DNA of 64,000 nucleotides, from assembly GCF_021155765.1 (NCBI RefSeq), contig NC_060116.1:4216001-4280000 (forward strand). The letters are read 5' to 3'. Below, in pieces: positions 4,030 to 64,000 of this stretch; within the stretch, counting starts at the first letter, position 1; every line of letters starts with the position of its first letter. The stretch comes from Diprion similis (lineage: Eukaryota > Arthropoda > Insecta > Hymenoptera > Diprionidae). The notes beneath the pieces are model-generated. The model was not told the origin of the DNA and did not search any database. It saw only the letters and a list, made by a program, of their open reading frames with translations. A program made the translations under genes and the position numbers.

Positions 4030-4990
4030 TTAAGGGGAAACATATGAGTAGAATTTTCAAAAATCATTTTTAGTTTCGATTTTCTGAAAGTTTGAAGTAT
4101 GAAGAATATTGTGCGTAAATTTTATGACGAAATTCCAAAAATTGTTAAAGTTATGGGTGATTCACTGACAGGTGGTTGAGTGGCCCGACTGGTTTTTTCT
4201 AAAACGTCAGTCTACCGTTGACTGTGCAGCAGTGAATGTATTTTCTTTTGCATCGCAGCTTTATAAAAATTAAACAGTTAACTGGAAAACAGATATGGCG
4301 AGAGGAATCGCAAAGATCAACTAAAAAAAAAGCCACCTGTAACTGGTAATATAGCTGAAAAAGGTGGCAGTTATATGAGTGCTTCGGCGAAAAAAGTGCC
4401 AAAATCACTAGATTCAGAACCAAGCATCAACCATAATATTGATTACCTAAATTATTCTAAATTTCATCGCAGTTTTTTCGTTCATCAGTTAAAATGTGAG
4501 ATGCACAGAATGCCGAGCAGAAATTTATACAATAACAAAAATCTGTACTCCTAGTCTCAAATTCAACATGGAAATAGAGTGTCCTTGCAAGCGCCGAAGT
4601 GTACCTTCTTGCTCATATACCTATAACTAATGCATACGGAATAAATAAAAGAATCTGCTGAATCAGTACGAAAATGATTTGTCGGTCAGTTGTTTAGGAA
4701 AGCAAAAGAAATGATTACAAAAGCAACAAATCAGGCAAATGAGGGATTGAGACGAGAGCTGCGGCAGCTGTAGAGGGAGTATTTTGTGTAATGGTAGATT
4801 AAAAAAAATATAAATTTCACACATAATTTGTTTGCAAACTTTAAGCTCGATATCTCTACACATCATTTTTGAAGTTGGTTCCTAGAATATCTGAAAAACG
4901 GTTAGCCGATTTGCTACAAATTACTTCGCAATGTTTTTGGACTTTTATTAGTTTTTTGTTTTTTTTTTCAAACGAAACCACAAGGTTAAA
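4030..4990 (+). mobile_element. Degenerate DNA-transposon remnant, possibly Mutator-like
   Basis: The stretch begins with TTAAGGGGAAACATATGAG, followed by an AT-rich tract resembling the terminal parts of long-TIR insect DNA transposons. On the plus strand near 4363-4440 one frame reads GGSYMSASAKKV followed by a Ser/Asn-rich tail. It resembles a motif I recall near the start of insect Mutator-like transposase proteins. The frame is interrupted on both sides. I could not find a clean partner inverted repeat, so the right boundary is approximate and the class is inferred from memory of similar elements. An ordinary intergenic sequence is the alternative. Confidence 0.3.
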
Positions 4991-5192
4991 AGTTTAGATC
5001 AAAAAACGAACTCTAAGTTTATAGAATGACTATTTCTGCAAAAAAAAATTATTTCAGAATAATATCTTCCAACGCGAACTGCTTTATGTATTATATTTTA
5101 ACAATCCCTTTGTAACTCATGGTTCAGATGAACAGATTACTCGGAATCTTAGGAACCGCAAACCACGTCCTATAGAATATTCATGGATATAT

Positions 5193-37000: not shown

Positions 37001-40000
37001 GAAATTAATTATTTTTTCAAGTCGTCATTCACGTTAATTTCTTTATCACGTTACGTTTCGCAAAATACTTGACGATAAAGACGTTAAATTTGATTTGTAT
37101 AAAGATTTTCTCCTCAGTCTATAAAAAATAGCGCCAAGTTTTTCTGAAGAACAGTTATACTAAAACATGACTCATCCGCATTCTCACTGCACTTGTTGTC
37201 AAGTTGACCGTATAATCTGTAGAGATACACACATGCGTATTCATACGATCATTACAGCGAAGTATGTATACGGATTCGCAAAAAGAAGACAGAGAGCCTC
37301 GCGAAAGCTTGGCTATCCTGCTCGACGTCACGTAGTCAAACAGGAGAACAACTTGTGCGTACTTCGTGCGAGTGGCATCAGGTTAATGTTCCACCAGGTG
37401 TGCATCTCGTGCGCGTTCGCACGTATTCCGTTTCAGCAAATTTACGTAATATGAACACGCGCTACGTATCGCGAAATGAAAGTTGCGGTTCCCGATTGTG
37501 GGAATTTCTTTTAAGGGGCTTTCGCACCTACTTTAGTCAGGATGATTCCAAAATACTATAAAAGTAAACGAAACTCGTTGGTTGGTTTTTATGAGAACTA
37601 ATCGATGTTGAAGATTCATTATATTTGTAATCTAATTCAAAATTCATTGTACTACTCAAATTTACTTTAGCAACTTTACGCGATACTCGTTATAATTGCT
37701 GAATAAAATTTTCTAGATTTTATCGAAGTGTTTTAGTCATTTTTAACACCGGTTAGTTAATTGAACTGATCCACTAGACTGAAAAGTCATCGGGACTCTT
37801 TCGGGTCAAGAGATATTCCACGATATGCTTATAAATCGAATTTCTCTAAACCTCCTTAAATATGATATTGCTTTAGAATTGTCATCCTGAGATCTGTGGT
37901 CAGAATTTTCATAATTTAACTTCATTGGCTACAATCTGAATCCACGTATGTAATTAACACAAATCAGGCTAGACTTAATAGCTAGTTAGCTCCAGTTTCA
38001 TCGATTCTTTGTTTTGGATCCACTTAACGTGGTTCTTTCGGCAATCTAAATTCCTCAACTGTGTATGAGCTAAGTAATAATTTGAATGATTTTCTTAAAA
38101 TTCATGAATTTTATTTTCGTACATCATCCCAACAACTTTTTTACACAAATTATGCACTTTTCCCTAATGACTCCCGAGTCACTAAAGAACCAGCTTAACT
38201 TCCTCGAAACATACATTATCCTCAGCCCATTTTGTTCTGCGTGCCCCGAGTCACGTAGACGACATTTCGGGGTCCATTCACGAACCCTCCATGCACGATC
38301 GGACGATTGCACGTCATCCACTCGTCAATCAAACACCTACAGGAAACCGTCTCGCGACGGTCTGCTCGTTTTATCCTATATAATAATATTAGGGACGATA
38401 AACGCGATGCGTCACCAAGAAAAAATACTACAGCGTAAAAAAGATAACGTAAATATTATGTATAGTTACTGTTGTTTTCTTTTTACTTACTCGTCGTTTG
38501 CCAAATTATAATTGCAAAATTGCCAATGCGTCATATTATTTTTTGGAAAGAAACAAAAATCACGTACATTCGGTACAAGGTATATACTTGCCTGTAGAGC
38601 AAACGACGGTTATAATAATCGATGATAATGATACTTGTAAATATTTTTGAAGTCGAGATAAACAGACCTTTATGCCACTGTAACTGTAATGTTTATACGT
38701 ATATATAATAATGTAATGTTTATACTAGATTAACTATTTCGATATTGATAATAATAGGAACAAATATAAATACGCTGTCAATATATAAATACGATATACT
38801 TTTACACGATGTATAAAAATGTTTTAAACGAATAAAAGCGATATTTTTTTTTTTTTTTTTTTTGTTACGCACGATTCTAGTAATCATACGCGCATAATTA
38901 TTTCTCCAAGTACGATATTTCGCCTTTCCTCGGTCTTTGAACCCTGGTTGAATCACATGACGTTTAGGTTACCGGCTATACAAATCGTAGCTCGACTCGG
39001 GTAAGGTAATTTAAAAAGCAGTTGCGTTTTTGCAATCGGTTTAAAGCATCATTGCGACCTCGCCACAGTACCCGAAATTTATTTCTGTCTTGTTTGGTGC
39101 TCGAGAATATTCAGACCCGTGTTTTTCTACCCTGCATATTAAACCTACAGTACGCAAGATGCGAGCGTTTTATTTATTGATCAACGTTGAAAACAGGATG
39201 ACGCAAGAAAAATAATGAAAATGAAAACTTATCCGATGTAATCGAATTAACAACGAGTCCGTTATCATCATGCGATTTGGTATAAGGCTCTCAGTTACCT
39301 CTTCACAAGTTGGCAACGTTGCAGTTTTTTTTAATCACATCATAACAAAAATTGATCTGCTTATTACAACTGCTTGGGGAGTTTCGTCCCTTTCACCGAC
39401 TCCTGAATGTGCATTTCGTCATCCAGTTCAACAGCCCGGCTAGCTCAGTCGGTAGAGCATGAGACTCTTAATCTCAGGGTCGTGGGTTCGAGCCCCACGT
39501 TGGGCGGAATTATTTTTGATTTTTCGACTTTCTGCCAACCTCAACGAGAAACGATTGAATAATTTTCAACAGTCTTGCAACCTGAATGCAAAGTAGTTAG
39601 ACTAAGGTCTGGTGGACAAGTTAGATGACTAACTTTTCACTTTTCCCATCATTCAAGCGTTCTGATTGGTGGACTAAACTTTGCAAACCAATCAGAATGC
39701 TTAGATGGTGAGAAATGTGAGAATGTGAAACGTCAAAAATTGCATGATAAATAGTCTGGACTCAATTGATGAACTTTTGTAAAATAATCGCAGCATCCAA
39801 CTCTTAATAATGCCTCCGTGCGGTTTTTGACCGCATGCAGTCCGATTATTTTATAAACCGACTCGTCTGCAGTGGTTATCGAGTTGATGATCCGAAGCAA
39901 TTACGATGATTTATAATACCACAACGGATAAATTTAGCAACGATCAACGTCGTCACGGTCGCGTCGATGGTGCAGAATGAAGTTGAATCGATCCTCGTCT

Positions 40001-46000: not shown

Positions 46001-48879
46001 TTAGTATGTACCCAAAATACATATATTTACGTCCTACTACACTTTTGTACGGCTTTTGTTGATGTTTTTATATTCTTATGTAGGCGTCTCGAAATTTTGG
46101 GGCTAGTTATATAGACGTGTCGTTTAACTGTTTCCGCTACTCGGTCACCTCATGCGAACCATGAAAAGCGAAACAGAAATAACTCTAGAAATGTAGACCG
46201 ATTGGCAAGCGCGGGGGGAAAATTCTTGCCTACGTATTCATTTACATCTGGGCATCATTCCAGTAAATGAGACACACACGTGTGCCGTGATCATCTCTAC
46301 TATATATAAACATCGTAATATAATTATATACATATATCAGCACAATATAGTTTGTAGATATTAATTGTAAGTGCATCCTTCTCTTATACGTGCTCGATTA
46401 TTTATTTCACCTTTTAATTCTGCGTTCAATTTATTTCGAACTTGTATATGAAACTGCGTTTTAATATATTAGACACGCAGGATCTATAGCAGACTAAAAA
46501 TATAACTTGATTTTTAATTGTAAATCCGATAAGTGTATTCGTCTCTCTGCAACTGACATGCAAGTGAGATGTTTTGAGAAGAACGTCACTGTTTATGACG
46601 CGAAAAAAATACTTGAGAAACTTGGGAAGCAGCTTGTTGCTATTGTTGTTGTTGTTGTTCATTTTCTTCGCAATATCTTTTGTATCATTCGTCGCAGATC
46701 TCTAACGACGTACGATATTCATCTTTATCAGGCAACCACTTTAATTGACAATAAATGAGTGGAAAATTTTACTGCCAAATTGGGCAATACTTTGATATGG
46801 GAAGAAACATTGGGTTTGTGTTGCATGACAAAAGTTATTTTTAATTATCTTACGGTCGCAAAGCACCATCAAAGTGGTAATACGAGATTTGTTAGTGGCT
46901 CAAGCTGTGATTCAACGTACTTTTTACTGCGTCGCATCGTTTTCCGAGGTGACTCTCTTCGTCTTCAACCTGCTTTTCACGTGTGACTAAAATATATGTG
47001 AAATTCTCTTTGTTCTTACGCGTTCTCAAATGTGCCTTTAATTATTTTATTTTTCAAATTTATTTTTATTTTCATCTTTTGCTTCCCCCATGTTTGTTTG
47101 GAATTTTACCAAATCTCATAAATCGTATATTTACACAAAACTTTCTAATTTGAATCACTTAAAGACGGACAAAACAATATGCAATTATATATACGAATAT
47201 CATACAATAACTTATACCTATAACTCACGCAGGTATCATCATAATATTGTATCGTGAAGTTAAATCAGTGTACGCGCATTCTCGCGGTAGAGATAACTGC
47301 TGTATCAATTATTGATCGAACGGGTGACCAAACAAAGAATTTTAAATGTATTCGTCATTTATTTTTCCTCTTTTGTTATTATTGAACTTGAAGATAATTC
47401 AGTATGGCCACTTTATAGTAAGGTAAAAATTTGTAGCAACGAATAAACGGTTCTATACATTAATATTACCGTTTACATACACCTATATCGAATGACCAAA
47501 TGCAAGTTACACTGCAATAAAAAAGTTAGATTCAAAATAACATTTATTTCAATAGTCCTTTAGTGAATAATTTGTTAATTCAGAAAAATATTTGGTTGTT
47601 CCGACAGACAAATTTTATTTTAAACAAACTTTTCTTGCTGCAAATAACCATTTGCAATGATTATATGTCTGCTAACGACTATTGGAATAAATATTCTCTT
47701 GGATACAACTATTTTTTTTATTTCAGTGTAGTGTTACGGATATGAAAATCTTATTCAATAAACAAACGTCTCTACAATCTTATCTTACACGTTTACCTAG
47801 TCGTCATAATTCAAAACAATCCTGCTGATCATTTAAAGAATATGGAATCGTGAGACACGATAATACTGTTTCCTTCAACTTTGTACTTTGCAAGTTCTTG
47901 ATGTAGTTGACGACGAGGTGCAATAAATATTAATTCATCCGCACATAAAAGCAAAATTGTTGAATTTTATTTCAAGCCTAGTCAACCACTTCAAATCTTC
48001 TCGATTTACTAAAGAAGTATAATTTATTTCAGGATGGGGAATTAGTGGACAAAAATACCGACTGGATTTATGAGTGGAGTTCTCGTCCTGACCAGGCACC
48101 ACCGAAGTAATGTTCTAAACTAATCTTAAATTGATTATGCAGTAATATTAATATTACTTAAACTGTCAAATATACGAAATAGTAATTAGAGTAGAAATTC
48201 AGAAACTCTAATTTAATTTCCATCCGATTACGTTCGAATTGCAATTAAATGCAAATGTATCTGACCTTCTGTTTGCTGATACCAAATAGTCCTGCGTACT
48301 TTTCCTAATTTCTCTTTTTGTTTTACTTTCTTTCTCAAAAGGGACTGGAAATTCAAGCACCCTCTAGGAGTGACCAAGAGGAAAACGTACAGCATTCGAA
48401 CAGCTAAGGTTGGAAAGAATGGACTTTTTTCTAAGGAAGTTCTCTACACACTATTTCTCACCAACTTTCTGTCCCTTTTAATTGGCACCGGCTTCGGGTA
48501 AGACTTAAATTTAGTGTTGATGGACTTTGTTATTACTCTATTTTCACTTCAACAAACCCATAAATATTTATTGATGAAAATATTTTACTCATCCAGGGAA
48601 TTCAATCCCTTGATAATGTCAAATTGTGTTAAAGCTAGAGCTTTTCTCGATACACATGATACAAATTTTAAACTACTTCAAATTGATTTCATTCTGGATT
48701 AATAATTGCAATAAACAATAGCTATAAAATTGGAGTCAAAGCTAGTTAACAAAATTTCTGAATTATTTGATTATTCCAATAATTGAAAAATGAATATGAA
48801 TTGATTTAAATTTTCTTTACCCTCCAGAGTCTGGCTTACTAGACGAGGACTCATGGTCCCTCGCATAACGATCGAGTGA
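26918..48879 (+). CDS. BNIP3: BNIP3-family mitophagy receptor (complete, 6 coding exons, 196 aa)
   Basis: BNIP3 is a tail-anchored outer-mitochondrial-membrane protein that recruits Atg8/LC3 for mitophagy and can promote cell death. Exons: 26918-26960, 40659-40836, 41913-42000, 48033-48106, 48342-48497 and 48828-48879 (TGA). The sum is 591 nt with consistent phases. Residues 17-20 (WVEL in ESWVEL) are the LC3-interacting motif. Residues 66-90 are Ser/Pro-rich (DSPKSPPNSPNTEL). Residues 113-135 carry the family core DWIYEWSSRP..PPKDWKFKHP. Residues 161-184 are the C-terminal transmembrane segment, LYTLFLTNFLSLLIGTGFGV, followed by RR and a short intermembrane-space tail. The dimer motif keeps Ser172, Gly176 and Gly180, but position 173 is Leu where human BNIP3 has His, and 184 is Thr. 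Intron 3 appears to use a GC donor (AACAAG|GCAAGA). An unseen in-frame exon within the 6 kb third intron is possible. Confidence 0.9.
29046..29672. repeat. 19-mer present three times at about 300 bp spacing (two direct, one inverted)
   Basis: ACTCTCTCAATAGGGCCGC is at 29351-29369, its exact reverse complement at 29654-29672, and a one-mismatch direct copy (AATAAGGCC) at 29046-29064. The spacing is 305 and 303 bp. The inner pair brackets 322 bp with a 22-A run in the middle (29449-29470), like a short inverted-repeat element. No target-site duplication is evident. Confidence 0.6.
35158..35163 (-). terminator. Candidate poly(A) signal of the antisense ORF
   Basis: TTTATT on the plus strand is AATAAA on the minus strand, 50 nt downstream of the stop of the 104-codon ORF. 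Confidence 0.35.
35213..35527 (-). CDS. Unrecognised single-exon 104-aa ORF nested antisense in BNIP3 intron 1
   Basis: The frame opens with ATG at 35527 immediately after an in-frame TAA and closes with TAA at 35213-35215. The predicted protein is hydrophilic and mixed in charge and has no signal peptide or membrane segment. It starts MSFKRKSMPKLYHC, has a central YDELDNCEVICTRDYVKID, and then an Arg-rich DMRRLRELVESDTRRLRLIV followed by a Lys-rich end. The balanced composition, without the Ile/Phe/Tyr/Asn excess of chance ORFs nearby, suggests a real or recently real coding sequence. A poly(A) signal follows at 50 nt. It lies about 210 bp from an inverted-repeat element, so a transposon or retrocopy origin is possible. 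I do not recognise any family. Confidence 0.45.
   Translation of the reverse strand: MSFKRKSMPKLYHCSSKGLKFEGNNYVELPSSNYKITKETAHFYDELDNCEVICTRDYVKIDMRRLRELVESDTRRLRLIVTHNSKDKVKIPPSSRFCEKSKMG
35735..36265. mobile_element. 531 bp MITE-like element with long terminal inverted repeats
   Basis: The two ends, read inward, share about 115 bp at roughly 90% identity. They start GTCTCGT and continue through ACAAAATGTTAGTTTTTGAT, then AAGAGCCCACTCCAAAGGAC and AAGAGGTCGCTCCA. TTGA flanks both sides (35731-35734 and 36266-36269), consistent with a 4 bp target-site duplication. No coding capacity is visible, so it would be a non-autonomous DNA element. The superfamily is unassigned. A 22-A run follows the right flank. 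Confidence 0.85.
39434..39506 (+). tRNA. tRNA-Lys (anticodon CTT)
   Basis: A 73 nt cloverleaf: acceptor GCCCGGC paired with GTTGGGC, D-loop with AGCTCAGTCGGTAGAGC (A box), anticodon arm GAGACTCTTAATCTC with CTT, and T arm GTGGGTTCGAGCCCCAC (B box), ending in discriminator G. There is no intron and all stems pair. It is located inside BNIP3 intron 1 on the same strand. It looks intact and functional. Confidence 0.97.
39634..39723. repeat. Fold-back (90 bp hairpin) downstream of the tRNA
   Basis: The arms 39634-39670 and 39687-39723 are inverted complements at 30 of 37 positions, perfect for the 11 bases next to the 16 nt loop (TTCTGATTGGT / ACCAATCAGAA). Several mismatches would be G-U pairs in RNA. 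It could be a MITE relic or a pre-miRNA-like hairpin. Confidence 0.65.
41157..41180 (+). other. Candidate 24-nt microexon of BNIP3 that would introduce a stop
   Basis: A strong acceptor (TTTTTTATATTTCAG) precedes and a strong donor (GATG|GTACGT) follows 24 nt between BNIP3 exons 2 and 3. Joined to exon 2 it reads SVDFGI then TGA, so inclusion would truncate BNIP3 after about residue 80. Direct splicing of exon 2 to exon 3 gives the conserved protein. A regulated poison exon or a fortuitous site pair are both possible. Confidence 0.35.
42001..48032 (+). other. BNIP3 intron 3 (6.0 kb)
   Basis: Begins GCAAGA and ends TTATTTCAG. No conserved coding feature was found. A G+C-richer patch at 43190-43460 contains a short frame starting MTPRRNGHVSRPPRESR that I could not assign. 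A CCAAGTGAGT / ACTCACTTGG hairpin sits at 43754-43801. A TTG-triplet run lies near 46637-46658. Other frames look random. Confidence 0.55.
43754..43801. repeat. Short perfect hairpin
   Basis: CCAAGTGAGT at 43754-43763 and its exact inverse at 43792-43801, with a 28 nt loop. It is short enough to be chance. Confidence 0.4.
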
Positions 48880-51800
48880 AAACAACGATTGAGAAGAGGA
48901 AGTACGATATCGAGAACAAAGTATGGCAATATTGTTAGCAATGGGACGAATAATGCTGGTTAATGGAACGCAAGAAAGACTGATGCTGGGAGTCGGCAAT
49001 ATGCCTAAACACACACATACACGAAACTATTATTTGCATGATTAATTACAATTGAAACTGCAATTCTAATTAATAACTATACAATTTAATTCTTAAATAA
49101 TGATATGACTATGGATTAAGTTAGGAGATTTATTTGAGAGATGAAAAAGTGACGAAAAAAATATTCGCTTTGTTACCTTGGCTGCAAAGTGAAAGAGAAA
49201 GAAAAAAAGAAGGAGAGAGAGAAAGAAAAAACCTGTCCATTTTATACCATTTCTAATGCATACATATGTTTCTGTCTACGATAGATTATTATAGATCTAG
49301 CTTGGATAGTATTTATCTATAACTTACTAAGTATTAGGGATTTATATCCCTGACACAGGGGAAACTATACATATATTCCATGTGAGTTTGATGGATTATT
49401 GTCAAAATACTATAAACACATGATACTGATTGAATTTCAAGATGCGATTGGTCTGTATGTTGTGTTTGTCAACATTCAGATTCATTCATGACATGTCTGA
49501 TAAATTCTGTCTAGAAAATACTGACCATAATGCGTGTTCTTCTCTGCTTTTATGTACAATCTTTCACACATGTGATGATATGATTTGTAGTGCTTTCTAA
49601 TACTTTTATGAACTCAAACATAAAAGCATTTAAAATCCAAATTCGTTCTATTATTTTACTGCAGCTAGGCCGCATCCATAAAAATAATAAATACATTGAA
49701 TGAATTCTGCATAAAACAATCATTTCCAACATGTGACGACTGTTGAATGCAACATTTCTTGCTCACACCGGGCTCAGTATAGTCTTAAAATAGCAAATGT
49801 ATAGTTTGATGAGATATCGGCTGATAATTACCAACTTTAATCAGATTATGATTACTTGAAAACTAATTGACTACTACAACGAGCCTGAAATATTTAAATT
49901 CCTAATCTCCAATAACGGGTTAGGGAATTGCAAAAGATATTAATGGTTTCAAAATCATACTTACAGCTCTGCGTAATTTGAATAACGCTCAAACTTCTAT
50001 CAACGACATATTTCAATTTATGCTGGAACGGAACGTCTATTTAGTAAGAGTAATACCATCTGCGTTTCATTTCACTTCAAATCCAGATTTGTAAAATATT
50101 CTGATAATATTTTCCTCTATCCCTCAAATATATATTTATCTAAGTTGTATTTAACGATTTCAAATGGGCAATCTTAACATTGCTCGAAATATTTGGAATT
50201 GTCTTAACAATGCTATAGTTATGTTTTCTACTTTAAAAAATTAAAATATCATTGTACATTTATTTGCGAGGCGTTAAAAATTATTTGAATATCTATCCTA
50301 TAATTATTACTATTAAATATATGTTTAACTGTTTGTAGTTGCTCTGAAATAAATTTTGTAAATTTATCAACAATTAATCTACAATATTCATCATTCGATA
50401 TGTGTGTGTGTCGCATATAATCAAGAAACTGTTTTTTCACTCATCTTTATGGATTTGTAAATTTACTTACTTTAATGGCTATTTTCGTCCATACCAAAAG
50501 ATTTCTTTACGTCACAGCTGGGTAATCATGAAACTTTCATATACGATCGTATTGCATGTATGTACATACGTCGTCAATGCAGCCAAAAATATAAAGCGGT
50601 TGATAATCGATAGTAAACATGTGTACCTCGGTAAGTCGGCACAGAGCAACTGTTAGGCAGAACTTTAAATACAATTGGATAATAGTAAATTGTAGCAGAT
50701 GGCAACAACAGAATGATTAGCAAGCAAATTGAATCTCATGAAATGAAAACAGGGACTTTGTAACACATGTGTATCGAAACGTCAATTATTCGGTTTTACA
50801 TTATAACTTTAACATAAAGAATTGGAGTGAAAAACGAATGAGGATAATACTAGAAATCCAAGCTTTAGGATCATCCAGTGAGTTTAACGCCTTGCAGTTG
50901 GTGCGTGAAAATAAAATCGAACTGTATGCTGCAGGTGTTGAGACTTGGTAAGCTTTGAATAATATTAATTTCTCGACGGTCTGATAGTCCTCAGTATTCT
51001 TACCCCCAAAAATTTTAATATCTGCCAAAACTTGTGTGTCAATACACTCACACGTTGAATACAGCTTGAACGGTGCTCACAGAGAAGATTCTTAGAATAG
51101 TAATAACTGTTCTTCTCTTACATGATCTAGCGATAACATAGAATCGATATTATGTAGTTATATTTTTAATTTCCGAGCGAAACATTGCTAGTGTTTTGAT
51201 AGACTATTGGAACCTGCTACTGGAACCAAAGTGAAAAATTTCTTATAGCATAATAATTCATTGGAATAACGACAGTTTTATTCATCATCGTCATTATTGA
51301 AAAGTGAAGATTGAAAATGAAAAAGTTCGATATTTCGCTGACATCCTCAATTCACCATTGAACGATGAACTTTGAAGATCAAGGAATACGTATGTCAGTT
51401 TTTCGTATGAACTTAGTATGTATGGCATGAATAAGTAAATATCAGGTAATTTTTGTCATTTCAATTTAATACCAATAAGTCAATATATCGAATATCTGGC
51501 AGTATTGTGCCATTTATAATGAGTTAACTGTACAACGACGATATGCAGGATCTTCAGAAAAAAGTATTTTATAAAGCTTTGGGAGTTGATTAGACGTATG
51601 AAATAAACTATATTCATATGTATGCTGTTTATATACACATACATACATACATAAATATATATACACATATATGCATGTATGTACGTATATATATTTATAA
51701 TAACGATAGTAGACAGATGTACATATTTAGGCTGCATACAACACACGCCTAAGCTTATCAATAATTTTTAGTATATAGTCTACAAATACTTCTATATAAG

Positions 51801-53541
51801 AATATTGGAACGAAATTATAATTACAATTAGTAACCCATTAAAAGCATACATTTTTTTAGGAGACTTTTTACTATTCGTCTACTATTCTGTAAGATTTGA
51901 AGAAAACAACAAAAAGTATTGCAAGAATGGAAGTAGAGTTGAGATCAATTTCCATCAAGAATTTGATAGCGATTTAATACAATCAGCAGTACAGGTAATT
52001 TCGTTGAAACTTACACCTGAAATAACAAATAACCTTTTCTATGGAGGATCTGCCTACCTACATGGGCACAATTCTTTAACTTGTCTCATTGTATATATTT
52101 AGGCAAACTTCCTAAGATTTGTTTCTAATTATTTTACAAGCAGCGTCGGTAAAATTACTTGTGTACAGAATCATATACACATTGTTAATATACTCATGTA
52201 GGTCGTAAGTTCCCTATTTATCGTGAATGCACGCATATTTTTTGAGTTTACAATTTAATTAAATCTTTTCCCGCTAGCATACTTCGATTTTGAATTATGA
52301 GATAGGCATGTAGTGTAACCAGACTAGGTAATTAAAACATAAACGATACGTGAAATAATGAAGCAGTTATATTTTTTAAATAAATTCGTAATTCAATCCA
52401 AAGTCTTAAGTTTATGCAATGTATAGACTGTATCGATATCATTAGCTTAAATAAAAGTAAATTCATCATTTTTTTTATATATTCAAAGGGTTTTTCATTA
52501 TGTACAGTCTGTATGGCAAATTGACAAATTCTTTATATTAATTTTTCAACAAAAAATTTCGCAGAACCATAACGTATTTTTAAAATGTGTATAAGATAAA
52601 AAAGAAGAAAGGACAAATACTTTCTTCAATCTACGTCTAGCAAAATAAGTTCAGACTCTCATTAGTAGTTGTGGTAAATATAAATAAGCAATACTTGCTA
52701 GAATTATACAAGAAAATCACAAGCAATTTTCAATTTATTTTTTTTAGTTTAACATTAACGTTATCGCCATGATAAGTCTTATACTTCCATGTGAGTTTAG
52801 TGCTGAGTGTGATGTATTAATAAACCAAAAGTGAAGCTACTAATTTTGTATAGAAACTAGAAATATTCATTATTAAACAACATATCGATAGAACTTTATC
52901 TATTTCCTCACAGAAGATACAAATTCGATCGATTTATCGATATGGTTACGATTATATTTATTTTTCATTTTCAACAGTATATGTATACGTATTGCGTAGT
53001 TCAATAACAAAAATATAAGCATTGCTTTGTTGTATCATAATTTGAAAATGTATTCCTCAATTGAAAAAAAGTGTACATAGAAGCTTGATCACCATTGGTA
53101 TCATATTTCTCCATATGCTGGTTGTGAAGCTGAATTGTTTCTATGAATTCAGTATGCTCTTCTCTTTCTTTCTTTCTTTCTGATGATCGAAATACAGTCG
53201 TTACGGTTAATTAACTAGAAATAAACCTTTATGATCAGTATACTATTTACGATTCCTCCCATGTTCGAAATTCTGATAAGTACATATCAGGACATTATCA
53301 AAGTTCCAACTTAAATTAAAAACTTTGGACGTTCATGTCTTTTTTTCTCCACTACTTTACTAAACTTGTGTCATAAGAGTTTATGGATAAAGATGATTGT
53401 AAAAATAGTTTGTCGCTATTTTCTAATCATCATCATTTGATTACAAATTATCGTTCATGTACTAGCAAAGGTCTACGAGATAGAATTGACGAAAATAGAC
53501 GATAGAACGTTACCTGATAAATAGAACAACCGACTAATAGC
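48880..53541. other. Convergent intergenic interval between BNIP3 and SCAMP
   Basis: 4.7 kb containing both 3' UTRs. AATAAA at 49686-49691 is a possible BNIP3 signal, and TTTATT at 52957-52962 a possible SCAMP signal on the minus strand. An ACAT/TATG microsatellite is at 51636-51680 and a TTTC run near 53160-53180. No supported gene. The 60-codon frame at 50769-50951 looks like chance. Confidence 0.55.
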
Positions 53542-56500
53542 TTAATATCGTGGTTGGTTCGAGTTAGCCATCTGTGAACGAACTGCACTTGCAGCTACGT
53601 TTCCAGCAGCGTTCTGCACGTGTTCATTTCGCAGGAACGTTGAGGTAAATTCTTGTTGTGCCTTTGCAACACTAGCCCCTGTACTGCGATAGATACGGTG
53701 GATCTGAGAAAAAGCATACAAAAATAAGCCATTCTACCATAATTATAATTCGTGCAGATCAAAATCTGAATATTATGTGGTAATTTTTATTGCTTCCCAC
53801 CTTGGATAACAAAAGTATGTCACCAACTGCCGCCACTGCGTAGCCAATAGCAATAATGAGTAAAAGAATACCGACAAATACTCCCGATCCTGTACCATCA
53901 AATGACTGAATTGCTATGATTATTCCGCTGAAACAAATAGATAAACTTGATGAGATATGAATATTTAAAAATCTTTCAGATGGATGAACAACACCCAAAA
54001 CTTGTATATATCCCTCAGATAAATATTTTTATTAACTTTAATACAGTATAATAAGATTCTTTACCATGTGCCTGATCCAGATATCCCAAGAGCTTGAATA
54101 ACCGTCACAACGAATTGGAAAAAGAATACGAAGAAAAAGACCATGAAATTAAAAGAACTGTCACTCCTGAAAATTGAAGAATAATTAAAGAAATAATTAT
54201 TTGCGAGGGTTAACAAAGTTACGAATATTCTATGGTAGTATTGAAATAAAATACTTCACTCTAGAGTTAGTTATTTTAAATGAAGTACAAGTGAATAAAG
54301 ATATGTTGTAACATTACAGAAAAGTACCTGAAAGCCTTGTATGCCGGCCTATACCAGCAGAGGAATGAAAATGGAGTAAACAGCAGAAGATAAAGGATGG
54401 CAAGACCAAATGTAGAAAATCCTTGGCTATGTAGCAGCAATGCAAATCCACCGACCACGTTTAACACCATCACACATCCATGAACTGTAATGAAATCAGT
54501 GATTAAACACGACATAGATCTGCTATTAAACAATGAATTCAACTTACAACATTTTTACACACATCTCACAAGATTTTACTCTCTAGATTTTTATTAAAGA
54601 TTTTAGTAAATTTTACTTCAGGAACCAATACAAGAAATGATCATGTGAATGCAAATGAAAAATTATACATACACATCCAAAGGTAGTAAAGTTGTCTAAC
54701 AATCTTTTGGAAGTCAGCAGGAATATCAACATCGATATCCTGATAGACACATGGTTGAAAACAACACTTTTCAGGCAATGGTGGCCAATTGTTTCGTCTT
54801 GCTGAAATAAAATTGATGGCAACATTAATCATGCAAATATTTATTTATTGAACAGAACTATCGTTCGCTTTTTTCTTCATTTGTTTACATGTCCAGAATA
54901 ACGTTGAAATATACAAATACTATTAGGATTTATGAAACTTTTATGAAACAATCTATTATTCCAATAATAGAAATTGATAAATTCAGTGACGTGATCACTA
55001 TTTTTTAACACCTCTCCTACTTGAGACAAAAATGATTGTCCGTCAACAAAAGTTCAAACATCAAAATTTATCTGAATAAGATTAAAATTACTATGTACGA
55101 GATTGTTTGAGTTACTCAATTTGAACCTGAGGGCTTATTCTGTAATTCTGTCACAAAATTGCAACAATTTTACTGTGGCCAAATTACATTAGTTGAACAT
55201 TGACCGGGTAAGAGTGAACTGATGTCAACAGTTTTTCACAAATTTTAAATGACTATTTTGAGGCAAGTTACGGAATAAGCCTGCTAAAAATGCAATTCAA
55301 AAAAGAAATTTGGACACGTTTTTTTGTGGCTACGTTTGATCAAGTTTTCTCATTTAGGTCAGCAAAGGATGAATCAATACATGTATATCAGGAAAAATTC
55401 AGAAACAGTTCATGATTAAATCGGTCACTATTCTATAACGAATCCATTGTTGTAAGGAACAAAATAGAAAATAGAATTGAGTAAAAGTAACACGAGTTTT
55501 GTCATTAGTTTTTCTGAACTATGAAACATGAAGTATTTTCGATTATACACACATAGAGAATTTGCTAATAGCTATCAGTAAGGTATTTCAAACCTTTCTG
55601 GAGTGAATAAACGAGAATATGCTTTTATTGGCGTAAAAGAATCAAATAAATTCCAAATTTCGACTTATAAAATTTATGCAAGATTTTCTGCATGGTCAGG
55701 TAATTTAACACGGCAAGCACGGACCCGATTTTACTGTACAAATTAATTCCATTCTCTGTTAGTCCCCAAGAATTGACGCCGTGCCTTGAAGTGTTAATGT
55801 AATTATTATGTATTACAACTGACCATAGTATGGCGTATTTCTCATTTCCTCATCTCTCCTCGCTTTCCATTCCTCTTCCTGTCGACGCTGGAACACAAAA
55901 TGTAACATTAAATTTCAAATCTATTTGTTTCCTAGGCTATCGAACGAATCATTACATTCCAAATTAAGCCATACGCATCACTTCATCATGCACTTACGTC
56001 TGGTGCTGGAGGTGAGGTAACTGCAGGTGTAGGGGTCACTGTCTGCTGCGCACTTCGGGTGTAATTAGGTGGTGGAACCTCCTGATTTGTAGGCTGAAGT
56101 GTAGCAGGTTGTTGAGTGGCTCCTACACCTCCATAAATGGGCGGGTTCGAAGCTCCTCTTGCCTGTGTTGCCCCCTGTGATCCTTGGTCCGCAAAGGGAT
56201 TGTAATCTTCGATACCCCTGTTGGCAGGAGTCGAGCTGGCGGCTTGTCGAACTGCGGGATCCTATCGACGGTAATGAAATATTCTACATCGTAATCAATT
56301 GTCTGAACCCAAAGACAATGGCCTTTTCAATATATAAAACAAACAGTGTATTTAACTAATATTTTTCTCCGAATGTTTTGTAAATAAACAATTGTGAATA
56401 TGTAAAGGCTAAATAATTAATAAAATACGTAGGTATGTTAAATTTGTACATAATAAAATTTCACGTCAAGGTGAAGGTGATTATAGTCGAAGATATACTG

Positions 56501-56728
56501 CGCGGAATTTTTTTTTGAAAATATTATTACACGTCACTGTTACTATTATATGATTCATATAGCTCAAGTGTTTTAACAATCTTTTGACAAGTAAGAGAGA
56601 CATTGCCAGTGTCGATCCGGGTGTCACGTATTTCGTCGAGTATCGTGGAATAAAAAAAAAAGATTACTTGCCGAGAATGGGTCGTTCAAAGCTGGTTCCC
56701 CAAAGGGATTTTCGTCAAAACCGGACAT
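53542..56728 (-). CDS. Scamp: Secretory carrier-associated membrane protein, SCAMP (complete, 8 exons, 353 aa)
   Basis: SCAMPs are four-pass proteins of secretory and endocytic vesicles that act in membrane recycling and exocytosis. Exons in gene order: 56728-56672, 56261-55998, 55887-55824, 54801-54673, 54484-54328, 54166-54065, 53927-53801 and 53703-53542 (TAA). The sum is 1062 nt, phases agree. Residues 1-107 are the cytosolic Pro-rich N-terminus with NPF endocytic motifs at 7-9 and 40-42. Exon 3 (108-128) carries a short charged coiled-coil segment, [15 protein letters not shown]. Residues 132-167 hold [10 protein letters not shown] and [15 protein letters not shown]. Four hydrophobic segments follow in exons 4-7. 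The family hallmark [11 protein letters not shown] lies between the second and third. The C-terminal tail is cytosolic. Intron 1 appears to use a GC donor (TTCTCG|GCAAGT). The coiled coil seems about 10 residues shorter than in typical SCAMPs, so a missed small exon between 54802 and 55823 cannot be excluded. Confidence 0.95.
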
Positions 56729-59508
56729 TTCTTAGGGATTGGATTTTTCCCGGTATTTAATTTCAGAAACAGCGTATACGCTGGCTTTCAGTCGAATAAT
56801 ACTTGTAATCTTATCTAGCGACGGTTTTCCATCGTTGACGTGCCCCTGGGGCCTTCTACGTGCGATTAATGCTTTAGCTAGAATCACGGACTGACTCGAA
56901 ACTCCTAAAAATAGCTAAACTGCCGACCCGATGCATATACCCTCGTAAAATATACAATGTATCTATATCTTTATAAATCAGCCGGTAATTTCTTTTAATT
57001 CGATCATTAATTATCGATTGAGAATAACCAATTTTCTGTAAGAATAAAAATTGTGTGGAAGCCAGGTCTTTGAAACAATTCGTAATTATACACGATAAAA
57101 TTACAGTGCGAAATAGTTATTCTCGTGGAAAGTGCGCATATATATAAAATAGAGATTTCTTGACGAGTGCAAGGTGCCGCACGAGCCGAAGGCAAGTGCA
57201 ATGTGAACCCACATGAGTCAAGAAGTCTATAATTGGACTCTTGTAACAAATCCTATTTTCTGTACTACCTCCTGACAAAAGAGAGAAAATATTCTGTAGT
57301 TTTTACAAGCACCTGTGCTTTAAAGTCGACTTTTAAGCACTTATAGTGCTTTAAAAAACTACAAAGTAATCGAGTTGTTGACGGAAATAATAGCGCGCGC
57401 AGAAAACAATGGTGAAGTGACTTTAGTCGTTTCCAATATGGTTCCACGTGCTCTGAGACTGGGCCAATCACATCGCATAATATGAAACCGCAAAAATTGG
57501 TATAAACAGCGCAATCAAGCGCAATGTCGTCATTGCCACTGAAATTGAGATCTATCTAGCTGTGGCCGAAATTTCGGCAAATAATAGTTCTGATTCTTGC
57601 CGACGGCGGCGCTGGTGCAGATTATTCTTGGATTTGTAATTCGAATCGGGAGTAATATTGCGTTCCTTCATATACAGATATATATATGTTTTACATATTT
57701 ATATATGTTTATTTATTATATTGACGAAATGGACATACATGTAAAATAAAATCGTTCGTTTTTGACAAATCCCTAATTAATTGCTATTTTTGAAACACCT
57801 TTTCCAGACCATCTATATTTCAGATTATTAGATTTACGATACAGGATATCTGTGTTATAGTTATATTCGGAACAAAACGATAAATAAAAATAAATAGGAA
57901 AAACTATTTTACTATAACTTTTGAGAGCTTTTGTATGAACAATATCAACCACAAAATCCGTAATTGACTTAATTAGACGCAGGGTCGACTTATATTCGAG
58001 ATTTTTCCGTAAATTTGTTCCATCTACTAGATATCATAACATTTGCTCAATTCACCTACAGATTATCATCTCCGGAGCCTATTTATCCACAATATTGAAT
58101 TGTTTGCATACACTTACTACTGGGACTTGACTTAACAAAGTACGTATATTATTGTTCCAGGTACCAGGATTAATAACTTAATCTAAGTACGAATGTCTTT
58201 AGTTGTACAGTTCCAATTTGAGTAGTTAAAATTTGCAAGAAAAAAAAAAAAAGAAAATAAGGACTTCAAATGAATACTCTCCTGTGATAATAATTTGATC
58301 ATAAAATTCGACTTATATTCGGTATTTAAAAAAAATACTCTCAAACCAAGTCGAAAAATAGGGGCCGTCTAATATTTCGAACAATACGATATGATGCTTA
58401 ATTTGTGAGTACAAGCAAGGGTAAAGAATTGTGTCTGAGGAATTATATCAATACCACGGCACACGAAATTTTGAAGAATTTAATCGACATCTTACAATTG
58501 GAGAATGTAACACATGGAGGGAGACTTGCCCTAAAGTGGAGAGACAGAGAGAGAAAGAGTAACATGAGTACCTTTCTCTTTCTAAGCCAGGAGCGTAGCG
58601 TGGTAAATTTAGTACCCGCGTCAATGATACGCACCTAATTAAAATTTTGTATGACATTTTGAAGAGTGTATGTTGCATTCATTATAGTGTATTTTATGTA
58701 CGGTAATTAATATATAATTATTATTGTATATCGTATTCAATATGTTATATATATTTCAATATAATATATAATATATAATAACATATTATATTATATTTAC
58801 ACTCAAGAATTCACGACGATTGTAACCAAAAAGAATAATTTTTGGTCGAAAGAAAACTTGCTTTACGAATTTGTTATTTGGTTCGAATTATTGGGATTTT
58901 GTTAACTGTGACAAAAAAATGATAGTTTTATTCATGCTATGGCACTTTGACCATTTAGTACGTTACTTTACTTATCTTTGCACTAACTAAGCACTTAGAA
59001 TAATTATATTATCAGTACTTATGTTTAAACAAAACTTAATATCAACGATAATCAAGAATAGACATCAATAATGAATTGCTGGTGAGCGCTGATATGTATT
59101 ACATACATACATACATGCATACATACTACATGCTCTAAGTTGGGCCCTTTTCTCTCTATTCTTCAAAGGGACTGTACAGAAGTGTACAGAGATCTCTGTT
59201 GCGCTATCTCTCTCTAACCCCCCCCCCCTTCCGACGCCGCCACCGCCACCACCACCAGGTGGCGGCAGTGAGAAAAGGCGAGTTAAGAGTCGCGCAGAAT
59301 CGCGCAGCGCTTATTCGGCTCCAGTCAGTGCTCGCTGGCAGACGCGTTTAGCGAATAGGATCTGCTGCGATTCTAATAGCCCGAAGAAAGCAGGCGCACT
59401 TCAGCGTTGTAGAATCCAAATGTTATAATCAGTGTCAAATTTTTTTAATCCAGTGTTATAATCAGTGTATATTTGTGGCACATTTATATTCGGTAATTAC
59501 TAGGCAAA
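56729..59508. promoter_or_regulatory. Divergent interval: SCAMP promoter, decayed repeats, promoter of the downstream small gene
   Basis: The SCAMP start codon is at the left end and the start of the unknown gene at the right end. The right part (59150-59420) is G+C-rich and contains a C-run at 59219-59228 and CCGCCACC...GGTGGCGG (59243-59265). It also has a 15 bp direct repeat TGTTATAATCAGTGT at 59421-59435 and 59454-59468. This is a plausible promoter and 5' UTR. The middle is AT-rich with an ACAT microsatellite (59099-59126). Confidence 0.5.
57970..58375. mobile_element. Possible decayed inverted-repeat DNA element
   Basis: Left end AATTAGACGCAGGGTCGACT and right end GGGGCCGTCTAAT match imperfectly in inverse, and TCGACTTATATTCG occurs twice in direct orientation (57985-57998 and 58308-58321). 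The phrase GTCGACTTATA with a GTCTAAT end resembles ends of widespread non-autonomous cut-and-paste elements. No coding capacity, boundaries approximate. Confidence 0.35.
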
Positions 59509-60913
59509 ATGCAGAAATGTGGCCCAGAGAATCAAACTATTATTGAAATCAAAAGCAGCCTGCAAATGTTGAAGGTGAGTTACATTCGACGCATTTGACT
59601 ATCGTACGTGCAACTTGAAATTGCCGCTGACTCCACGGTGCTGTGTTTTGTTTTTTGCCCGCGCATTTTTGGTAACTTAACTCATTATCGGCTGTTGAAA
59701 AATCTTATTATATATATGAAATCAGCAATTTGAAGTTAGGTACATATTACGAATTATTCATGTAGATTCTAACGGTCACCGGTCTGCGCCGATACCGAAA
59801 TTACAAAACTGTAAGCGAGTTAAACAATCAACAGAGATTGGTTTTTCAACAGTAATCTCGATCATTCTTCGGAAGAATCTTACATGCGTATTACTTTTTT
59901 ACTGCAATCAGGAGATACGGTGGTTGTATGGTGAATTGGGTTTATAAAACGGATCTTGCGGATCTTCAAACCTTCGTTTGAATCATTGTTTCGGATGTCG
60001 GATCGCACATAGCGTTCCCACAGGTGTACAAAATGCACTTATCGCGTATAGATCACTCCAGCACCCATTCTTGCGTATTGAAAACAAGTTAGATGAAAAT
60101 AAATAGTGTCGGTCGAGCTTAAGGATGCATTGTTTACATATAGTTGTGCTTGTGTGGCGGTTGGTGCAGCTTACCCTCTGAAAACATACCGAGATTCATG
60201 TTTATCACTGTGAGTGTTTACTTGAATTTCGAATCAGTAAATTCATCTTCCGTCGCGTTTTTTCTGAGGATCGATACTATAGTACATCGTTTCGTATTCT
60301 ATTCTATTGTATTATTTTTTTTTCAGAAGTTCGTATATTACGACGTTATTTATTTTCGAATTTCGAACACCTCGTACGTTTCGGTAGCTTAGTTTTCTCC
60401 TTTTAAAATTATATAATCTTATTATACGTTTGACAACGACGAAGTATAATTAACGGTAAAAACCAAGGAACATGAATGATTAATTGTTTTTCAATCGTTG
60501 TATTGTTTTTTCTGAATAGTAGTAGTAGTTAAGTTATGCTTGATTAGTAGATCGATTTTAAAGTTAAATCGTGGTATCTTACCTGTTTACAGAAACGAAC
60601 TGCAATATCATTGATTGGTGTTGGTGATTATCTGGATCGAGTGACCCTGTTAATAAATCCTGGAAAACATCCTATATTGACTGAGAAGATCAATTTATTT
60701 CCGAAAAACAACAGGTACAATGCAATCTATTACATTTTTAAAGTTTAAGCATAACTATTACAACACATTTGAAATATATACGTACGTGTTGAATACTGTA
60801 CATACGTGGATTTTCGAAATGAAATATTAACAAAATCTGGTGTTGTTTTATCTGATTACAGAAATAAAAAATATGCTGTAAGACTGATCGAGGTTTTCGA
60901 TTATTTGAATTAA
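59509..60913 (+). CDS. Unrecognised three-exon gene, 79 aa
   Basis: Proposed exons 59509-59574, 60593-60714 and 60862-60913 (TAA). Junctions are AAG|GTGAGT ... TTTACAG|AAA and AACAG|GTACAA ... GATTACAG|AAA, with agreeing phases (0 and 2). The start has a near-ideal insect context (GGCAAAATG) and follows a G+C-rich promoter-like region. The predicted protein begins MQKCGPENQTIIEIKSSLQM, continues ISLIGVGDYLDRVTLLINPG in exon 2, and ends YAVRLIEVFDYLN. It is mildly basic in the middle, with no signal peptide, membrane span or cysteine pattern. I do not recognise it. It could be a small insect-specific protein, the 5' end of a longer gene through alternative splicing, or a noncoding RNA with a chance frame. 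Splicing looks more secure than coding. Confidence 0.45.
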
Positions 60914-61368
60914 AGCCAGCAATAAACATCAAAACACAAAATGCAACATCTGACCAGGCCTCAGTGCTGTTGAAAAATAAAAAACAGGTACATCATAAAA
61001 ATCATTTTCAATTACACCATCACGCTGAATTCCCTCTAAGAAAGTTGACCTTTTTATTTGAAATTTAATATTATTTAGTCCTTAATTACGTTTCATGAAA
61101 ATGGTAGTAAATTTTCAATGCTTTCTATTACTGATTCTGTGTTTCATGTATCGGTGCATAAAAAATTACTGATTTTTATAGAAAAAAAATTGTTCGAAAT
61201 AGACAGTTTCTAATGAAACGAAATCTGATCCAAGTACATATATTGCATGAGTATTATTCTGTTATATTCTTATTGCAGTGTAAAAAGTGCGTCACTTCAC
61301 GATTCAACCTGAGACCTACTAGACTACTACATCTGAAGTGTGGAGCAGCCCGGAGGAGGTGAAAATTG
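60914..61368 (+). ncRNA. 3' untranslated/noncoding spliced exons of the unknown gene
   Basis: Exon 3 appears to continue to a donor at 60987|GTACAT. A further exon is likely at 61279-61368, with acceptor TATTGCAG and donor ATTG|GTGAGT (an alternative donor is at 61358). It has no long frame and lies after the TAA. A spliced exon after the stop, if real, would mark the transcript for decay or show that the reading frame above is not the main product. Confidence 0.35.
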
Positions 61369-63384
61369 GTGAGTTTGCATGTGTTTAGGTTACGGATATT
61401 TCCCTGGTATTCCCTGTCACGTGGCGTGGCGGTAACAATAATATTACATCAATCTTCGATTTCTTAGCTGCATGGGTAGGCTCATTCGCAATCGCAACGG
61501 TGCTTGACTTTTAGTTGAATCATTTCTTGTCTTTGCAATTTGATTTACTGTAGCTTAGTTAAAGTTAGAAATTTTGCCCGTTGCTAAATGTGGAATGAGC
61601 ATCGCGACAGGTAACCATCGCTCATTCGCAAATTGCAAGATCGAATCGTGTTTCGTTACAGATGTAATAATTTAAATTTGAATTTAGAAATTATATCGTT
61701 TAAGTGGTGGTTTCACCTGAGGTCTGAATGTATTCAGTTATTCGCATTATTGTTGAATTAATGAAACTACAAATTCTAGCATAAAGTAACATAATGAAAT
61801 TGCATCTTCTATTATGAATCATTTTCAATTTTTTAACAAACAACAAGTATCAGTCAACTGTAAGCTTAGCTCGTTTAGAAAAATGCTGATTGGCATACAG
61901 GATGTTTTTAATCCATTTTACAAAATGTTGGTGTATCGATAGTCTGCCAGTATTTTCTAAAATAATGCATACAATATTAGGGTTGGCGTGATACAACCGT
62001 GATACTGTATTCTGAGTAGGCGGACTATGGTACAAAAACATTTTGCTCCCTACAGGTAATCAATGAACAAGTAAGTGACAGTGACCACGGCGCGAATGAG
62101 GAAGAATGATGTGTGTTGGAAAAAATGGAGAATCGTTTAGATCGAATATAGGTAACCGGGGAGGTAGGTGGTCGTTTTGGAATCCGTCGCGGGATTTGAT
62201 GTGGATGTGCGTGTGAATTTTGTTTCACTATTTCCGTTGGGTGGTTCCGTTGGGAATCAGGCGAGGGTAGGAAGGTCGCGATGTACCGTGATGTTACTAA
62301 CTTTTGTAATCCACAGCGTCAAATGATCACAGAAATTTAGTCCCAAAACAATTGAAAGATTGTACCCGAGTCTAGACTATTTATCAGTATTTGAATATTA
62401 AAAAGGTTGAATTTTTCATTTATTGTCACTCTGCAATTATTCATCAGCTGTTATTCAATTCAATTATTCAGTCATTATCCATCATTATTTCATTCAATTA
62501 ATCTCTGTGATCGTTTGAATGGGCAAAACTCATCTCTGGACTATCTATCGCGTTCCGTGGTACGCTAGATAGGGAGAGATGCTGAGCTCGAAGACTTCGC
62601 GTCGAAGAGGACCGCCGACCGTCACGCCACACAATAATGCATGCTCTCCAACCTCCCTCCCGGACTTGATTCGTATCTGAGAACAACAATCCGCATCGCA
62701 GTGTATCTGATTTAAAAATACGTAGATGTGGATTGGATTTCTACAGAGTTTTTACGACAAGTCCTAAATATTAGAAATTTTTTGAAAATTCATTCGATTG
62801 CGCCTTTCTGTGCGCCGAGTAATCACTGAAACCTGACACGCTTTTGACGCGAATCGATTGCTCGTGCCTTTTGCGCATCGATTTCGCTAATAGTACGTGG
62901 GAAAGTAAAGCACTCCTGATATGCTTAGCTTTCAGCTGTTGAGTCAAATTTGTTATGAACAGACAAGTTTTCAAGTTCGATCGCGCCTTTTGCGCGTCCA
63001 CTTGATACCTTGTGGTTATGAGAGAAAGCGCGGCATATCTAAGCCGGTGCTCAACGCGCGGGGATAAAAATCGCAGAGAGAGAATACTGATAGTGAAAAA
63101 CCTTGGCCTAAGTATTTATCAAATATATCTGAGGTGTATAAAATTATTTGATTTTTAACCATAGTATTATTTTTTCTTCCAGGGCCACAAAGCAATTTTT
63201 TTTACAAGTACACTGATATACTGATTATTTGAATAACTCTTGGTGGGAAATAGATAATGATTAAAAAAATATGCAATTTGTTGGCATTATTAAAAATAAT
63301 CGAGTTAAATTTCGTTGCCGCGAATATCATGTTGGACTCTACATAGATTTTATCACTGTACTTGTAGCAACTTTCTGTGTTTTA
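61369..63384. other. Region downstream of the unknown gene
   Basis: Mixed AT-rich DNA with a G+C-richer patch at 62540-63070. Three related stretches containing TGCGCC/GCCTTTTGCGC follow TCGAT at 62793-62815, 62854-62880 and 62976-63000. No supported gene. It may be an intron or promoter of a gene extending past the right edge. Confidence 0.45.
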
Positions 63385-64000
63385 GCTAATCAAATCTTTC
63401 CTCTGTTTCAGCTAATTAAACCTTTTCTTTATTTCAGACAATTAAAGCTTTTCTCTATTTCAGCTAATTAAACCTTTTGTCTGTTTCAGCAAATCAAACT
63501 TTTCATCTGTTTCAGCTAATTAAACCTTTTCTTTATTTCAGACAATTAAAGCTTTTCTCTATTACAGCTAATTAAACCTTTTGTCTGTTTCAGCTAATTA
63601 AACCTTTTGTCTGTTTCAGCTAATCAAACTTTTCTTCTGTTTCTGCTCATCAAATCTTTCCTTTGTTTCAGCTAATTAAACCTTTTCTCTATTTCAGCTA
63701 ATTAAATCTTTTGTCTGTTTCAGCTAATCAAACTATTCCTCTGTTTCTGCTAATCAAATCTTTCCTTTGTTTCAGCTAATTAAACCTTTTCTCTATTTCA
63801 GCTAATTAAATCTTTTGTCTGTTTCAGCTAATCAAACTATTCCTCTGTTTCTGCTAATCAAATCTTTCCTTTGTTTCAGCTAATTAAACCTTTTCTCTAT
63901 TTCAGCTAATTAAACCTTTTGTCTGTTTCAGCTAATCAAACTTTTCCTCTGTTTCTGCTAATCAAACCTTTCCTTTGTTTCAGCTGATTAAACCTTTTCT
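63385..64000. repeat. 26-bp minisatellite with a 104-bp higher-order period, open at the right edge
   Basis: At least 23 tandem units of 26 bp. Each starts CTAATTAAAC or CTAATCAAAC, continues as a T/C-rich tract, and mostly ends TTTCAG (some end TTTCTG). From about 63670 the array repeats as blocks of four unit variants (104 bp), near-identical over three blocks, which points to recent expansion by unequal exchange or slippage. The array runs off the window. Confidence 0.95.

Follow-up and report, generated by a model that had tools for sequence, protein, structure and literature searches.

The array and the copy that carries it

The window, the whole 64,000-nucleotide stretch that was analysed (C12:4216001-4280000 within a 269-Mb genome), runs out inside a 26-bp minisatellite, the single array that TRF calls in the window at 63,372-64,000 (period 26, 24.2 copies, score 778). 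Genome sequence beyond the window carries it on to C12:4280614 and to a total of 47.7 units. A sequence-only reading of the same DNA had placed the array at 63,385 onward; the array is real, its true start lies 13 bases earlier, and the first YAG is complete at 63,385. The features to which we refer below are the following, with a slash marking the exon-intron boundaries:

59296..63371, plus strand: family body in the window copy, delimited by blast against the other fetched loci
59509..59574, plus strand: candidate first-exon end, with ATG and donor AAG/GTGAGT (GTGAGT in 18 of 18 copies)
60862..60987, plus strand: candidate exon between TTACAG and GTACAT (acceptor in 17 of 17 and donor GT in 16 of 17 copies with letters there)
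61279..61368, plus strand: candidate exon between TTGCAG and TTG/GTGAGT (AG in 18 of 18 and GTGAGT in 18 of 18)
62531..62581, plus strand: conserved hairpin-forming stretch
62587..62628, plus strand: 42-nt core, with 100 genome copies within 3 mismatches
63183..63242, plus strand: candidate exon after acceptor TTCCAG/GG (TTCCAG in 18 of 18 aligned close copies)
63243..63385, plus strand: candidate last intron, from donor-like TTG/GTGGGA to the first YAG, possibly the seed of the array
63372..64000, plus strand: 26-bp minisatellite with unit CTAATCAAACCTTTTCTCTGTTTCAG, continuing 614 bp past the window

The earlier reading had seen in these units the geometry of a 3' splice site, and this holds for the whole array: yTnAy stands at the start of 40 of its 47 near-complete units and YAG at the end of 40, with both yTnAy and YAG in 34. 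The part inside the window contains 19 exact CTAAT and 20 YAG, and the 19 gaps from one YAG to the next measure 26 nt in 15 cases and 52 nt in four, so that a potential acceptor does recur every 26 or 52 nt, as had been claimed. In the array at this locus TTTCAG occurs 37 times against 1.2 expected from dinucleotide shuffles, and CTAAY 38 times against 4.3. When AGs were scored with an acceptor matrix, the 3,004 AGs in the rest of the window served as reference and the median of 44 array AGs fell at their 97.9th percentile; the scores of the array AGs were similar to those of the family's own kept acceptors. Recent amplification in 104-bp blocks, also suspected from the letters, is borne out within 63,616-64,000, where self-identity is 0.975 at lag 104 versus 0.795-0.818 at lags 26, 52, 78, 130 and 156.

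Arrays at paralogous copies hold from 2 to more than 50 units, and the sequence is a minisatellite in the sense of head-to-tail units of 10-100 bp with variable copy number, the variation here being between paralogous copies and not individuals. The unit spacing and the CAG, on which the earlier reading had staked itself, are retained beyond this copy: among the 933 near-complete units of 25 arrays, 770 close with YAG and 688 combine yTnAy with YAG, a splice-site consensus of the IFI6 type. The minisatellite of IFI6 has a unit of 26 bp.

Looking for the end of the array and an adjoining exon, as had been suggested, located the end but no adjoining host exon, the sequence beyond being partly common to other copies. 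Judged by its sequence, the array is a member of a family of ~100 copies and not part of a host exon at the window locus. An open frame of 854 codons lies on the same strand ~2.8 kb past the array (L009 7437-9998, C12 ~4283437 onward); it stays open at the end of the fetched stretch and has no Pfam match.

A dispersed family with a conserved core

A genome search with the array returned at least 84 matches (40 of 69 candidates scored), and 84 matches together with one more place (100 of 162 places listed) were grouped by hand into at least 41 arrays, on at least 12 contigs. Twenty array loci were fetched at ~10 kb each. In 18 of these, the close or A copies (L009-L026), family sequence extends for kilobases to the left of the array; the distant or B copies are the remaining two, with more distant left-flank matches (L028, 76% over 1.7 kb; L027, 73% over 278 bases), and the later L033-L038. 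All 41 arrays so grouped lie downstream of family sequence on the same strand. For 36 of them a script found the core less than 10 kb upstream; four further arrays, three of them on C2 and the other on C1, have their nearest core downstream but also a same-strand upstream core 4.6-5.2 kb away, located by hand in the same list, and the 41st (C6:18299987) has family flank 215 nt upstream. The converse fails: a listed array accompanies at least about 40 of the 100 cores, a lower bound because the short array of L043 is absent among the matches listed.

The larger point is the family itself, whose 42-nt core is kept in 100 copies, on 13 contigs, against a divergence of roughly one quarter between copies in the sequence near the array. 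Among these copies 55 have no mismatch, 37 one, six two and two three, so that 92 of 100 have at most one, and the reversed core, used as a control pattern, had no match in the genome. Six tandem cores were observed on C1 (10219883-10271260) at a spacing of 10,264-10,268 bp, and four on C2 (5890696-5912094) at a spacing of 7,119 bp.

From left to right, a family copy comprises a ~340-bp block with AATAAA, in several copies ~64-bp repeats, the 4-kb body, the array, a ~0.4-kb stretch that is common to most A copies, and repeats of ~140-210 bp. Fuller copies extend ~340 bp further left than the window copy, from which the AATAAA-bearing left block is missing. Read in array orientation, the left ends of L010, L012, L013, L022 and L025 carry the ~64-bp tandem repeats, which in several copies carry TATAAAAG and TCATTC motifs; these are promoter-like, and we take them to be TATA- and Inr-like. 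On the right, in the same orientation, L016, L019, L021 and L026 finish close to a motif that is GAGGTTAGGTTA or resembles TTAGGTTAGGTTA, with AGTGAAG after it. After the array, at L009 ~4900-5060, the stretch GTGGAATAGGCCTATTGGGGATACCAC...CTCTACCCC is conserved among A copies and is possibly structured.

The 5' and 3' ends of the family are partly common between copies but staggered, and neither target-site duplications nor a clean element end could be established at the copies compared. An LTR retrotransposon was rejected, as self-comparison of the 20 ~10-kb loci brought out no pair of long terminal repeats; the single 101-bp pair in L018 (86%) is a repeat also present in L019, L022 and L024. 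Window positions 48,000-64,000 contain no open reading frame as long as 110 aa. A virus was likewise set aside, with no exact match to core or unit in viral contigs, a search from which near records may be left out. Nor does the family appear to be a known structured RNA: across the whole window only a tRNA at 39,434 reaches the Rfam gathering score, and the family stretches searched gave no convincing Rfam match, with a chance-level snoRNA match only (E 0.95) for 59,250-64,000 and none for L017 3300-7000.

Splice-like sites, reading frames and the hairpin

In the aligned A copies splice dinucleotides are kept in 18 of 18 at 59574, 61278, 61368, 62055, 62316 and 63182, and the splice-like hexamers GTGAGT at 59,575 and 61,369, CTACAG before 62,056 and TTCCAG before 63,183 are invariant in all 18. 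The background of invariant hexamers is 1.1% in 59,296-60,000, 14.5% in 61,200-62,000, 15.4% in 62,000-62,500 and 5.6% in 62,900-63,371. Since the splice-like sites had been chosen partly by eye, the identical scan was run on the minus strand. On the plus strand it yielded 8 donors and 10 acceptors, of which five and six are kept in every copy; the minus-strand control yielded 4 donors and 5 acceptors, of which two and three are so kept. The resulting 11 versus 5 fully kept sites, a roughly two-fold excess, are suggestive of splicing on the plus strand, and the minus control weakens the case. An acceptor like the TTCCAG before 63,183 stands ahead of GGCAAC in L027, L034 and L043; the same pattern did not find it in L033, L035-L038 and L028.

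A coding gene was rejected for the close copies: candidate exons 1, 2 and 4, read in all 18 with insertions kept, share no common long frame. Exon 1 starts with ATG in 15 of 18 copies and contains a stop in 15 of 18; in L015 and L024 it is 64 nt long and without a stop, and the 66-nt open form is found only in the window copy. Most of exon 2 is deleted in 11 of the 18 and exon 4 has a one-base shift in 14 of 18, and codon-position rates are roughly flat (in exon 2, for example, 0.058, 0.076, 0.085). Three translated family stretches had no Pfam match. A short ORF of 20-21 codons at 59509-59574, from ATG to one common stop, is open in 11 of the 18 close copies. With a 29-residue piece of exon 4 taken from L033, tblastn gave 55 genome matches, 53 of them open, although such a search favours open matches; for a piece of exon 2, 15 of 33 matches are open. 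Going by these open matches, distant copies may code. As a candidate spliced RNA without a long frame, the family combines the lack of such a frame in 18 close copies, splice-like sites that are kept with only a two-fold excess over the other strand, and the open exon-4 stretch. In our view the array forms the 3' module of a single unit in a gene-like dispersed family of ~100 units that is apparently non-coding.

The hairpin-forming stretch beside the core was compared in 24 copies (15 distinct), in which 98.9% of pair cells are standard and pair columns 23-52 are seen as U-A, C-G and A-U. Its covariation score was reached by none of 500 shuffles; the number of double-sided pair changes was reached by 348 of 500 and the number of pair types by 336 of 500, and energetically the fold is unremarkable (z -1.76, matched by 10 of 200 shuffles). 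By hand count, 60 genome matches within 3 mismatches of the U-A form comprise 30 C-G, 15 U-A, 1 A-U, 12 C-C, 1 U-U and 1 C-A, so that 46 can pair and, of the 14 that cannot, 12 are of the C-C type. On this comparison a conserved RNA structure is plausible, and the hairpin could be a small-RNA precursor.

Origin and possible roles of the array

That the array grew from the 3' end of an intron, as the sequence-only reading had ventured, is the idea that fits best, and we infer it from the donor-like GT, the YAG and CTAAT at the left edge and the placement of AATAAA. In its favour, the left edge is closed by YAG in 16 of 18 A copies (exceptions L013 and L020), and 13 of 18 have a donor-like GT 128 to 139 nt ahead of the array, with none matching in L011, L012, L019, L020 and L025; CTAAT is absent from the left edge in the close copies. 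For the B copies, we take CAG/GTAGAA at -155 in L034 and at -82 in L038 as the homologue of the A donor-like GT. The left edge of the L043 array is GTGCTAATCGTATTTTCGTCTGTTTCAA, with similar edges in L027, L034, L035 and L044; CTAAT or TTAAT with a pyrimidine tract is present in L027, L035, L043 and L044 and CTAAA in L034, and the left-edge YAG is present in L034, L035 and L044 and absent in L027 and L043. A search for an array-free ancestor turned up only L044, which has two units, may be ancestral or shrunken, and is 72% like the window in its flank. The exon before the array is gone in L035 and L036.

On the other side of the array, AATAAAGC lies 55, 65 and 67 nt downstream in L038, L036 and L027, which places AATAAA at 55-67 nt in three of seven distant flanks, and ~80 nt downstream in L043. 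AATAAA comes later, at 117, 192, 197 and 513 nt, in L034, L037, L035 and L028, and a genome search for one form of the post-array AATAAA element found it at five places. Among the A copies, CTAATAAA(C/T)AAA occurs 24-311 nt after the array in 7 of 18 (L011, L012, L013, L016, L020, L021, L022); the window copy has no AATAAA within 1.1 kb after the array.

We propose that tandem amplification of the last intron's 3' end created redundant acceptors towards the end of an RNA that is spliced and apparently non-coding, a reading that we hold to be about equally likely to prove right or wrong. Weighing against it are the donor missing from five of 18 close copies, the exon lost before the array in L035 and L036, the lack of AATAAA after the window array, the modest strand excess of splice-like sites and the low rank of the acceptor A among the unit columns. 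The family would be transcribed from the promoter-like left repeats and spliced on the plus strand; the intron end that was duplicated in tandem, with its branch point CTAAT, its pyrimidine tract and its CAG, would lie near where the transcription unit stops, and unequal exchange would keep the array long and uniform. Close to its 3' end such a transcript would then offer U2AF and the branch-point machinery dozens of near-equal 3' splice sites; the last intron might join any of several acceptors, or surplus units might remain as a last-exon tail that binds splicing factors. If spliced, the loci form a natural series of 2 to about 50 near-identical acceptors for studying the spliceosome's choice between equivalent 3' splice sites, and would also suit asking whether acceptor clusters retain RNA in the nucleus. 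That the whole is a spliced ncRNA gene family of ~100 copies, in which the almost invariant core, the covarying hairpin and up to about 50 redundant acceptors are kept as a functional module across subfamilies, we put forward tentatively, as something rather unlikely.

Amplified last-intron acceptors must be weighed against a neutral minisatellite in a non-autonomous repeat, its units resembling splice sites only through what they were copied from and multiplying passively, which we consider a serious if somewhat doubtful possibility. Such an account is consistent with array lengths of 2 to more than 50 units between copies and with private substitutions that are scattered over all columns (6-18 each, 293 in total). 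Furthermore, special constraint on the acceptor AG is not supported: across ~960 units, A25 is kept in 88.0%, with 10.6% T, and ranks 20th of 26 columns, the G is kept in 95.5% and the branch A in 97.2%, and the best-kept columns are T21, T19 and T22 (98.3-98.7%). Against neutrality, shared variants, which are not independent, are few at columns 19, 21 and 22 (1, 1 and 3) despite normal private ones (12, 9 and 10), and the unit consensus is nearly unchanged across copies whose flanks differ at roughly one position in four. Sequence pieces flanking B arrays share 72-79% identity with the window, while the consensus of L027, L034 and L036-L038 departs from the majority at column 16 only, which is polymorphic everywhere, and that of L035 has an additional difference at column 5; columns 6, 11, 15 and 16 vary among the A arrays themselves. 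At 26% divergence the binomial P is 0.0005 for no change in 25 and 0.005 for one in 25 (L035), values that count as one test and not several because the B loci share ancestry, and inter-locus gene conversion could likewise keep units alike.

Alternatively, the array might act as a repeat scaffold, lying in the last exon and binding U2AF, SF1 or another U-rich-binding protein with nuclear retention of RNA or protein, in the manner of hsr-omega and PNCTR; we think this unlikely. The excess of TTTCAG and CTAAY over shuffles would suit such a role, as would the short exon 1 ORF of the close copies and the AATAAA that follows the array in several copies. Depletion of YTCTYY, the PTB motif, speaks against it: in four arrays, of 25 in hand, it occurs 18 times versus 38.9 expected, 1 versus 22.1, 2 versus 13.7 and 1 versus 9.4. 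The PTB-binding sponge of the earlier reading fails on the same counts, under shuffled expectation in four of four arrays tested. Because A25 ranks so low and PTB motifs fall below shuffles, selection for acceptor use is unproven and the PTB sponge is unsupported. The lncRNA hsr-omega of Drosophila is described as a spliced non-coding gene with a short exon 1 ORF and tandem repeats downstream (PMC9865238), an order that the family would share in its candidate exon 1 ORF, splice-like sites and downstream repeats. The likeness is one of layout; hsr-omega has 280-bp units at one gene, whereas the family has 26-bp splice-site-like units at ~100 loci. Human PNCTR consists of tandem repeats with many sites for a splicing factor (PMC6224606); the family's tandem repeats likewise carry many candidate splicing-factor sites, but PTB-type motifs are depleted in them.

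The amplified acceptors that we favour have a counterpart in human IFI6 (6-16), where two minisatellite units serve as splice donors (PMC4526556). Both are minisatellites with splice-site-like units; IFI6 has donor sites in one coding gene, whereas the present units are acceptor-like, are found at many loci and have no long frame in the close copies. No acceptor-type minisatellite was recognised in the literature searched.

TAATTA is a homeodomain-type site motif, and it occurs 21 times versus 0.8 expected in the array at the window locus; however, there are only four in L017, nine in L028 and none in L035, and since column 6 can be either C or T the motif does not characterise the family, making a DNA-level array of such sites very improbable. 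That the array sits within a host gene intron beside a host exon, as the same-strand 854-codon frame downstream might suggest, is contradicted because sequence on both of its sides is common to other loci, and we give it hardly any credence.

The genome is probably that of an insect, judging from other frames neighbouring the array locus, which match Vinculin, in a frame that is presumably alpha-catenin-like, and SCAMP, the latter just below Pfam's own cut-off.
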